Shown: piece by piece, positions 57,340 to 60,446 of the stretch
How the letters are laid out: every line of letters starts with the position of its first letter
Position numbering within the stretch: the first letter of the stretch is position 1
Assembly (NCBI GenBank): GCA_030295235.1
Contig: AP026133.1
Location: 434,001 to 498,000, forward strand
DNA length: 64,000 bases
Source: Fistulifera solaris
Lineage: Eukaryota; Bacillariophyta; Bacillariophyceae; Naviculales; Stauroneidaceae
Direction of reading: 5' to 3'
Made by a program: the position numbers and the translations under genes
The notes under the pieces: generated by a model
Told to the model about the DNA's origin: nothing
What the model saw: the letters and a program-made list of their open reading frames with translations, nothing else
The model's database searches: none

Positions 57340-57842
57340 CTTGGTGAAAGATATTTTATGAAAGGTTCAATCTATGAAAAAGAAACAAGTAAATGCACCC
57401 TTATTGTTCTTGTATGTTCTGGTCTCTATTTTTGGATTCGGTACGAATAAAAAAATGGCACCTCCACGACTTAATATCGTTACAATAAGAATCAGAATAA
57501 TCGCTCATCCCTCGTCCGCACTTTATTATCAACCTCTCTACTCTGAACCTGAGAACGTGCGCGCAGAGAGGAAAATCCCGAGTCACTAATTCAGTGAGTC
57601 ATGAGTGAATCGGTTTGCGCCCCCCGCACCCCCGCATCGCGATGATGCAGATGATGCCAACCATCCGTCGATTATTTGATTGCGGCATCGAATGCGAATT
57701 CTGTCGTAAAGGAAAAGAGTTTCTGGTCTCTACTCTCAAGTCGATCTGTTGCAACCTTGTAATTTGCATTTCAGTAAGAAGGAAAAAATCAATTTCGAAA
57801 CGACAAAGAGGTCCTTTGTTTTTGTGAGCGTTCCTCCGTGTC
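57340..57842. promoter_or_regulatory. Divergent intergenic region
   Basis: 503 bp between divergent genes. A degenerate copy of the dispersed motif with TGAGTCATGAGTGA lies at 57590-57610. A C-rich tract (CCCCCCGCACCCCCGC) follows near 57619. Confidence 0.4.
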
Positions 57843-60446
57843 ATGACGAAGACGACGACACTTGCCAATCGCGCCGTAGTACTTTGCTTTTGGCTCATGA
57901 TACGAAACATTCATTGTTTCCAACTCAAACAGATCTCACCTCGAACATTGACTACTAGAATCATGTCCGCCCAAATGTCAAATTTAATACCCAGCAATCA
58001 AGAGCTGGTGCAACAACGATTGCAGGTAGCGCGCGAAAAGCGAGCAGCACGCACTCGGTCGATTCAACAAATCCAGGAACGGAATATGCATCTCAAAAAC
58101 ATACTTCATTCAGAGAATAACACTACAGTACCCATGTATGCGGTCAAAGTCACCGTTTGTGACGAATTGAGAGACGAACTCAAATTGAGTGGACGGGAAA
58201 AGCGAGGACGCGTGTTCATTGAATCAGAGTCCGACGCGGTGCGATCCTTGAAAGGACTGCGATTTGAATTGCATGCCTTCTTTCGTGCGTTACGAAAGGG
58301 AAGCTTTTGTTGTCGGCAGGATATCCATTAGTAGAAGAAGATGGGACAATCAGCAGCAGCAAGACTGTGGATGATGTGGTATGGAAGATTGAATCTGATC
58401 AAGACGTGATTGATACGTTCCAGAAGGCCGATAGATTTTTCCAAGTCAATGCGTCCACTTTGAAACGACCGTCAATTGTGATCAAGGTACAGAAAGATCC
58501 GAATGCTGCTCCACCGCCACCACCTCCCGCGTATCTGCAGAATATGCCAGATCCGTCTAGCAGTCCGACGATAACTATGTTATCGTTCTACTCGTTTCCT
58601 CCCGGAGGAGTGGAAAATCCGGAAGACTTTGCGAATCTGCTGCGGAAATCGTGGAAACCGTTTCAAGCCTTGGGCCGTATCTATGTCGCAAAGGAAGGTA
58701 TTAATGCCCAAATGAGTGTCCCGACCAATATATTAGACAATTTTATGGCGTGCTGTCAAAGTATTCCCGAGTTGGGATCGTACATGGAAAATGGAATAAA
58801 TATCGACCCCATTCCATTGACACGTGAAGAATTTGCCACCGCAGGAACACCCGCGGCAGGTGGTGAGCCCGCACCACCGTTCACGGGCCTCCACGTCCGC
58901 GTGCGCCGACAAATTGTGGCCGATGGTTTGGACGAGGCGTTGGATTGGCAATCCGCGGGATATGATATGCCACCCCTAGAGTGGCATCAAAAGCTCAAGG
59001 AAGAAAAGGATAACCTGGTACTTTTAGATTGTCGCAATACATACGAGACTGATGTCGGTCGCTTTGAAGGAGCAGAACCGTTAGGAACGGAAAACTTTCG
59101 AGACAGCTGGGCCGTGTTGGAAGATCGCCTCAAAGACCTTCCTAAAGATACACCCATTTATGGTTATTGCACGGGTGGCATTCGATGCGTCAAAGTTGGA
59201 GCTTACGTGACACAAAAGATGGGCTTTAAGAATTTCACTCGTCTCGCTGGAGGCATCGTTGCGTACGATCGAACAATACAGGAGGAAGCTCCAACAGAAG
59301 AGCCTCTTTTAAAGGTACCAATTTTGTCTTCGACGGCCGTCTAGGTCGACCTATCACGGAAGATTCACTGGGAACGTGTTTAACATGCGGAGGAGAGACA
59401 TCTTTGGTGAGCAACTGTCGCAATGAGAACTGTCACAAACGGATGATTCAATGTGAAAACTGTAGGACTTCTTTTCTGGGAACTTGTTCCGATGCGTGTC
59501 GACATCGCCTGGTTCGAGGGACTTCTGTTTCTATTACATCGCGACCAGAGGAAAGCAAAGTTTCGTTCAAGAATCTTGAGGATTATAGCTCGGGACACAG
59601 TTCTCCGACTCCCTCAGTTTACAAAGAAGTCGAGTTCAATACCAAGTCGCTCATTCCTTCAGGATCTCATATGATATCGGGAGACGCCCAAGGTCGTCTG
59701 CTGGCACAGCTTGCTTCCATGACACGAGAAGGACGTGTGATGGAGCTTGGGACATTTACCGGCTACAGCACGATTTGTCTCATCGAGGGAGCAGGGAACG
59801 TGGCCAAGGTAATGGGGCAAAAGGTACTAGAGAATCTGGTCCATTTGTGTTGACGATGGAGCGAGATTCGAGAGCGTTCGATGTTGCTACTGCTCACGTC
59901 AAGGCTGTGGCCGAACACGGTCTATCTGAAGCGGGTGCAGAATCAATATGCAGTTTCCGAGAAGCCGACGTTCCTTCGATACTGTCAAGCACTGTATCAT
60001 TGGTGTATGAAGAGTCGGTTGGTGTCGAACTTCGTCGTGTCTCGGATGCCCTGGCTGCCGTTGAAAGCATAGCAAATGGAGCAGAGGATGACCTGTCTCC
60101 TTTTGATCTGGTGTTTGTTGATGCGGACAAAACACGTTTACTTGACTACGTAGAGGCATGCCTGTCGAACGATCGGGTTTTGAAGAAAGGTGGTCTAATT
60201 ATTGTAGACAATGTTCTCTGGAAGGGCCTGGTTTTGGATGCTAGTCGAAACGATAGTTTTTCTACAGCATCCGATAACGAGGATGAGGAAGCCGATGAAG
60301 AAACAGCTGAACTCCGCAAGAATCGACGAGCTAGAAAGCTAGCCAACAAAATGCATCGATTCAATGCAGCGATTGCGCAAGACAAGCGTGTTGAAGTATT
60401 AGTAATTCCCGTGCGGGATGGTTTAAGCGTTATCCGGAAAAAGTAA
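57843..60446 (+). CDS. TrhO-type rhodanese fused to TrmR/CCoAOMT-type O-methyltransferase (three frameshifts)
   Basis: Met at 57843 starts a hydrophobic leader (VVLCFWLMIRNIHC) followed by FQLKQISPRTLTTRI, compatible with a plastid bipartite leader. Residues about 60-235 are a unique domain. Then comes a UPF0176/TrhO module: SFYSFPPGG, IYVAKEGINAQMSVP, LLDCRNTYETDVGRFEGA, and the catalytic YCTGGIRC near residue 442. The zinc-type tail is CLTCGG...CRNENCHKRMIQCENC (512-552). Without a stop the frame runs on into an O-methyltransferase: MELGTFTGYST (SAM site, about 635), DLVFVDADKTRLLDYVE, and GGLIIVDNVLWKG. Missing bases lie in the runs at 58305, 59307 and 59819; adding them gives 868 codons. 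The last rhodanese part and the methyltransferase SAM site share one unbroken frame (59404-59853). In bacteria the two activities make mo5U34 in tRNA. Confidence 0.85.

Follow-up and report, generated by a model that had tools for sequence, protein, structure and literature searches.

In a 64,000-nucleotide stretch of Fistulifera solaris DNA (hereafter the window), we found one gene that joins a TrhO-type tRNA hydroxylase to a complete O-methyltransferase. The gene occupies positions 57843–60446 of the forward (+) strand, and all its parts described below lie on that strand. Its ATG at 57843 and the stop ending at 60446 agreed with the original prediction. Read in order, it encodes a plastid-type leader, a domain without a Pfam family, UPF0176_N, a rhodanese domain with CTGGIRC, a Cys-rich Rhodanese_C tail and the O-methyltransferase. 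We judged the chances to be about even that the product is a single bifunctional plastid enzyme, one that would hydroxylate U34 and then methylate it to 5-methoxyuridine (mo5U34); this reading comes from sequence comparison, and its strengths and weaknesses are weighed below.

A domain search of the translated protein detected UPF0176_N, Rhodanese, Rhodanese_C and Methyltransf_3, as had been foreseen, and within the window each of the four scored above its curated Pfam cut-off; chance is therefore not an issue. UPF0176_N, the N-terminal domain of TrhO, spans 58574–58915 (PF17773, E 1.8e-15). The Rhodanese domain spans 58979–59269 (PF00581, E 1.7e-9) and contains the codons of the CTGGIRC active-site loop at 59168–59188, and the Cys-rich Rhodanese_C tail lies at 59311–59502 (PF12368, E 2e-17). 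The N-terminal part of the O-methyltransferase (PF01596; 59578–59808) includes the SAM motif LGTFTGYS at 59746–59769 and shares its frame with the Rhodanese_C tail. The C-terminal part (59809–60446; PF01596, E 4.3e-22) is read in frame 59589–60446 and carries TMERD (59853–59867), VDADK (60117–60131), DNVLWKG (60207–60227) and IPVRDG (60405–60421), with the stop after it. The CTGGIRC, DxDK and DNVLW motifs on which the prediction relied were in this way all located.

The join between the two enzymes was examined separately. The TrhO tail and the SAM site had been placed in one unbroken frame, and they do share the open frame 59230–59853 (207 aa), in which Rhodanese_C occupies residues 28–91 and the start of Methyltransf_3 residues 124–184 (E 6e-5; 22.8 bits, cut-off 22). 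Because both matches fall in this frame, the join needs no frame correction. About 25 residues separate the TrhO tail from the methyltransferase, whose start, EDYSSGHSSP, aligns by eye with near-first residues of free-standing Bacteroidota enzymes. We concluded that TrhO and the O-methyltransferase are encoded in one gene, and that the fusion is confirmed as real.

The whole gene in the window is covered by four frame pieces (57828–58331, 58268–59344, 59230–59853 and 59589–60446) and contains three breaks, each of which looks like one missing base. Break 1 (58299–58316) is inside the extra N-terminal domain, break 2 (within 59300–59315) is at the upstream edge of the Rhodanese_C tail, and break 3 (approximately 59785–59815) is at the start of the C-terminal part of the methyltransferase or just before it, at or shortly before GGGGCAAAAGG near 59810. 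A search of the genome (51.7 Mb in 61 contigs) placed the window gene on contig C8 and identified a partner copy on contig C7, whose DNA is 89% identical across the 3.5 kb that align and 91% identical within the gene. The same genome gave 23 matches to silicon transporters (PF03842, best E 3.5e-222), whereas among 14 control genomes none scored over the cut-off and one gave a match below it; together with the plastid-type leader this points to a diatom, or possibly another silicified alga. Diverged paired copies would fit an allodiploid diatom such as F. solaris. The C7 copy has a single 672-aa frame that runs from the leader through all of TrhO to the SAM site; it lacks breaks 1 and 2, and it shares break 3 with the window copy. 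Methyltransf_3 scored 21.9 on the C7 frame, which holds only the start of that domain, against the cut-off of 22. Around GGGGCAAAAGG the copies differ by three substitutions; read in the upstream frame each of them alters the amino acid, read in the downstream frame one of the three does, so the missing base of break 3 may sit slightly upstream of the run. A GT-AG intron at break 3 (length 3n+2, in both copies, sought by eye) was rejected as unlikely, the candidates of 11, 32, 38 and 47 bases being either very short or such as to delete a conserved motif.

We compared the two copies for selection in six successive segments. The dN/dS values were 0.26, 0.07, 0.05, 0, 0.04 and 0.12; the segment with a value of 0 is the Rhodanese_C tail (no amino-acid change in 69 codons), and that with 0.12 is the methyltransferase after break 3. 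With dN/dS well under 1 in each segment the gene looks functional, and the pattern suggests purifying selection on all segments of a working gene. The 14 Rhodanese_C matches in the genome were read as seven homoeolog pairs, and all seven pairs of TrhO-domain genes (the fusion pair included) differ by two or more gaps whose length is not divisible by three. Such frame-changing gaps were seen at TrhO-domain genes of C7/C8, C21/C22, C1/C2, C3/C4 and C38/C39. Some fall in short single-base runs, and a few adjoin closely and may cancel, or fall in untranslated ends of the stop-to-stop frames. These gaps suggest residual assembly errors, and the breaks in the window copy look like errors of the same kind, break 3 less certainly so. 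One might propose instead that the window copy is a duplicate in decay whose breaks are real and that only the C7 copy works, since two of the window breaks are absent from C7. Set against the low dN/dS of every segment and the frame-changing gaps in seven of seven pairs, which point to assembly even if some cancel or are untranslated, we regard decay as distinctly improbable. If break 3 is real, it would truncate the methyltransferase in both copies.

The original prediction knew of no description of such a fusion, a claim that the literature contradicts. Sakai et al. (2019; PMC6599085) reported a yceA-trmR fusion in Phytophthora sojae, P. ramorum and Phaeodactylum tricornutum, three species that they call bacterial, and they used the trhO-trmR fusion to single out TrhO. 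The window gene is a further member of this known stramenopile fusion: it combines the same two activities in a single gene, it runs TrhO into the SAM site in one frame, and one of the three published species is likewise a diatom. Its orthology with those fusions is inferred from their description rather than from aligned sequences. The fusions receive one sentence and a figure legend, in which the leader, the extra domain and the origin of the methyltransferase are not discussed (PMC6599085). The same authors took trhO homologs in eukaryotes as a hint of xo5U-type modifications there (PMC6599085). In its available text, a 2009 survey of oomycete fusions does not name the TrhO-TrmR pair, some of its table entries being hypothetical proteins (PMC2705460). 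A coconut survey reported ho5U and two TrhO homologs, one of them predicted to be chloroplast (PMC10298058). Our literature search found no paper pairing 5-methoxyuridine with Phaeodactylum, no report of plastid mo5U and no functional test of a TrhO-methyltransferase fusion.

In the TrhO half, UPF0176_N, Rhodanese and Rhodanese_C stand in TrhO order. Alignment showed that the residues equivalent to C200, T201, G203 and R205 of E. coli TrhO, which are essential there by mutation (PMC6599085), are all kept. K112 and R114 are tRNA-surface residues among the E. coli TrhO mutants (PMC6599085); in the diatom R114 is kept and K112 is replaced by R. A sequence search of solved structures matched 9j5o, a tRNA uridine(34) hydroxylase (E 6e-29), and 4f67, the UPF0176 protein lpg2838 (E 4e-22). 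Against the NCBIfam TrhO equivalog model NF001133 the C7 frame reached 160 bits (E 6.7e-47), narrowly missing the cut-off of 170, and the next-best model gave 73.5 bits. We filed this half as TrhO-type despite the miss, on the grounds that the threshold belongs to the database and is not a biological trait. E. coli TrhO (YceA) and the diatom protein both have Rhodanese with CTGGIRC and a Rhodanese_C tail; the E. coli enzyme, in contrast, stands alone and has a basic extension as its end, at the point where the diatom chain runs on into the methyltransferase, and the diatom protein has a leader and an extra N-terminal domain.

A tree of 63 TrhO rows (three phyla plus one Bacilli row, with 6 of 12 diatom paralog rows, one per pair, left out) put the TrhO half in a 100/100 clade whose other members are an E. 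coli TrhO, a second proteobacterium and 21 of the 30 Bacteroidota rows. The E. coli row, L157, is the 350-aa trhO product of a plasmid record. Approximately unbiased (AU) tests rejected grouping of the TrhO half with the diatom's own TrhO paralogs (p 0.0004) and with cyanobacterial TrhO (p 3e-7). A single clade of all Bacteroidota plus diatom TrhO was also rejected (p 1e-6); because the Bacteroidota rows split into groups, we do not derive the TrhO half from Bacteroidota and claim for it the clade that also includes E. coli TrhO. The nine Bacteroidota rows (L105, L110–L116 and L119, among the 30) in which CTGG[IV]K replaces CTGGIR group apart in the tree; R205 proved essential in E. coli TrhO when mutated to alanine (PMC6599085). 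The diatom paralogs also have varied C-terminal parts. TrhO is joined to an RNA-modification enzyme a second time in the genome: on contig C21, one 923-aa frame (L128:735–3503, − strand) contains both a TrhO paralog and a pseudouridine synthase domain of RluA type (PF00849, E 1.9e-14). The paralogs L126:1984–3642 (−), L121:1345–2898 (+) and L123:1410–3155 (−) end respectively in parts that are zf-CCCH_2-like (below cut-off), RRM-like (by eye, without a Pfam match) and weakly MIB_HERC2 (below cut-off).

The methyltransferase half is complete and keeps its SAM and DxDK/DN motifs; we take the residues of D...DN to be those of the metal site. Its phylogeny was built from 89 rows, 80 of them bacterial rows picked by similarity to the query, so that the tree weighs TrmR, CCoAOMT and the picked bacterial rows against each other rather than the whole family. 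The domain sat on a long branch (1.92), its sister group being 36 Bacteroidota/Chlorobiota rows (95/80), and four TrmR-type chains plus an Anaplasma enzyme lay behind a 100/99 branch, with a long-branch warning for those rows. The domain had been called TrmR-like. That description holds for the protein family, with orthology doubtful: the best tree sets the domain beside Bacteroidota methyltransferases and excludes a grouping with TrmR, although the AU test left that grouping unrejected (p 0.18; four TrmR-type rows). The other outcome that the prediction had left open, grouping with CCoAOMT, was rejected (AU p 0.0017; two plant rows).

B. subtilis TrmR (YrrM, 5zw3) has the same family, the same SAM and metal motifs and 28% identity over the alignment; it differs in lying in a separate clade (the 100/99 branch) and in having IDAAK where the diatom has VDADK. 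Plant CCoAOMT (1sui, 5kva) shares the fold family and the DADK motif, with 28% identity over the alignment for 1sui, but differs by the rejected grouping. The nearest bacterial relatives found were Bacteroidota O-methyltransferases (for example Draconibacterium L013 and Pontibacter L034), which are at most 33% identical and have a similar N-terminal and M.SG..QGR region, but are free-standing. VDADK stands in place of the IDAAK of all four TrmR-type chains aligned, and for this reason we did not file the diatom domain as TrmR; IDAAK is not unique to TrmR, however, FIDAAK being present in Bacteroidota row L049, and the domain may work like TrmR. Among the other Methyltransf_3 matches in the genome, where counts are lower bounds, one frame pair was listed (L003, L004; COMT-like by eye), and the same search found no separate TrmR or CCoAOMT. 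The 414 pattern matches on viral contigs included no relative.

These results bear on an alternative in which the TrhO half makes ho5U34 and the methyltransferase acts elsewhere, on a catechol-type small molecule or a free nucleoside, with no common pathway. In a single-sequence structure search, 3cbg (E 4.7e-18), CCoAOMT 1sui (3.8e-11) and many other members of the family ranked above both TrmR 5zw3 (4.9e-8) and 8k1f, a tRNA 5-hydroxyuridine methyltransferase (6.5e-4). That several relatives, CCoAOMT among them, outscore TrmR favours separate substrates, as does the position of the domain away from TrmR in the best tree. Rv0187, which belongs to the same Pfam family as the diatom methyltransferase half, methylates catechols and free 5-hydroxyuridine, and on tRNA containing ho5U it gave no significant activity (PMC6543040). 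Nevertheless, the CCoAOMT grouping was rejected, and one diatom and two oomycetes are reported to join TrhO to a trmR homolog (PMC6599085). Taking these together with the bacterial data below, we consider separate substrates unlikely.

We surveyed bacterial genomes for co-occurrence of the two enzymes. Among 148 Bacteroidota genomes, TrhO was present in 83, and the Bacteroidota methyltransferase model matched at E 1e-15 in 91 (49/80 + 42/68). TrhO was found in 50 of the 53 genomes with a methyltransferase match of at least 190 bits versus 33 of the 95 others. Since aerobic life could explain the pairing, we restricted the comparison to the 117 Bacteroidota genomes with strong COX1 matches (best E about 1e-110 or lower), a set that contains all 83 TrhO genomes. 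Within it TrhO was present in 50/53 genomes with a methyltransferase match of that strength and in 33 of the other 64 (Fisher p 1.5e-7, a value that ignores kinship). Seven score thresholds were tried in all 148 genomes and six within the COX1-strong set, where p was lowest at 70 bits (7.6e-9) and highest at 135 bits (4e-4), kinship again ignored. This strong association of the related Bacteroidota enzyme with TrhO counts against a small-molecule substrate.

The pairing is not strict. The TrhO check took in 40 of the 80 methyltransferase loci, 31 from Bacteroidota/Chlorobiota and 9 from other groups. TrhO scored over the cut-off in 24 of the 31 genomes and had no match in seven, which favours a small-molecule role; in the nine others it was never over the cut-off, with weak matches in two. 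No TrhO neighbour lay within up to 3 kb of any of the 80 loci. A bacterial fusion would need about 350 + 210 aa in one frame, and all frames over Rhodanese_C matches were too short. The longest were 413 aa in the 40 genomes with methyltransferase loci (27 matches in 26 genomes), 501 aa in Bacteroidota (84 matches in 83 of 148 genomes), 408 aa in cyanobacteria (14 of 59) and 372 aa in Pseudomonadota (11 of 60). Sakai et al. noted a trmR homolog without trhP in Pontibacter actiniarum (PMC6599085), and their trmR label may already cover the Bacteroidota enzymes; the homolog they list is possibly the free-standing O-methyltransferase described above.

The N-terminus had been predicted to be a plastid leader, and both copies bear this out. 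A signal-peptide-like segment of 25 aa (57843–57917) has the hydrophobic core VVLCFWLMI, with a Kyte-Doolittle peak of 2.98 in each copy. With the cleavage site placed by eye, F stands at the expected +1 position in both copies, and the 22 residues after IHC include no acidic and three basic residues, with six Ser/Thr in the window copy and seven in C7. Such a core, with F at +1 and then basic residues free of acidic ones, is the pattern described for diatom plastid leaders (PMC4329603). The leader therefore resembles those that direct proteins to the plastid, and it probably does so here. Between the leader and UPF0176_N is the extra N-terminal domain of approximately 105 aa, which starts MYAVKVTVCDELRDEL (58134–58444, bounds approximate). 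It is conserved between the window and C7 copies, reached the curated cut-off of no Pfam family, and in a genome search at E 0.01 matched nothing other than the C7 and C8 copies.

The compartment could also be another one, with the fused protein acting on tRNA in mitochondria or the cytosol and the leader being alternative or misread. The window copy has further ATGs at codons 19 and 41, which would allow for this. Oomycetes, Phytophthora included, are not known to have plastids. The fusion is also found in Phytophthora (PMC6599085), so it need not be a plastid invention, and this too favours another compartment. We doubt a site outside the plastid, however, because both copies retain the hydrophobic core, F at +1 and the basic stretch without acidic residues.

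We returned to the two-step plastid enzyme as the preferred reading. In certain tRNAs the TrhO half would turn uridine 34 into 5-hydroxyuridine with the help of O2 and its CTGGIR-loop cysteine, and the fused SAM- and metal-dependent O-methyltransferase would then methylate the new hydroxyl to give 5-methoxyuridine. At position 34 this nucleoside would widen wobble decoding of four-codon boxes. The leader would probably send the protein to the plastid, and the benefit of fusion may be that the intermediate is handed over between the halves. We infer both reactions, the substrate, the compartment and this advantage, mo5U synthesis in the plastid included; the fusion of consecutive steps hints at function, and Sakai et al. 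took it that way (PMC6599085). Counted against the two-step reading are break 3, the placement of the methyltransferase outside TrmR, its VDADK, the structure ranking, the 7 of 31 genomes without TrhO, the substrates of Rv0187, the NF001133 miss and a Bacteroidota association computed with kinship ignored.

Compared with the published fusions, our analysis adds a second copy, a selection test, details of the leader, the N-terminal domain without a Pfam family, a tree position for each half on its own and the association in Bacteroidota. With that association, the idea that an mo5U methyltransferase exists outside the TrmR clade becomes testable. More speculatively, and with a good deal of doubt, a lineage of ho5U34-tRNA methyltransferases apart from B. 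subtilis TrmR may be common in aerobic TrhO-bearing Bacteroidota, a stramenopile may have acquired both bacterial-type genes and fused them, and diatoms may make organellar mo5U with one protein. The fusion gene offers a compact expression test for both modification steps. If the two-step reading is true, the Bacteroidota relatives would be candidate mo5U methyltransferases outside the clade of B. subtilis TrmR, and a eukaryotic organelle would carry, through a single two-step enzyme, a wobble modification that a 2023 abstract calls specifically bacterial (PMC10516636).
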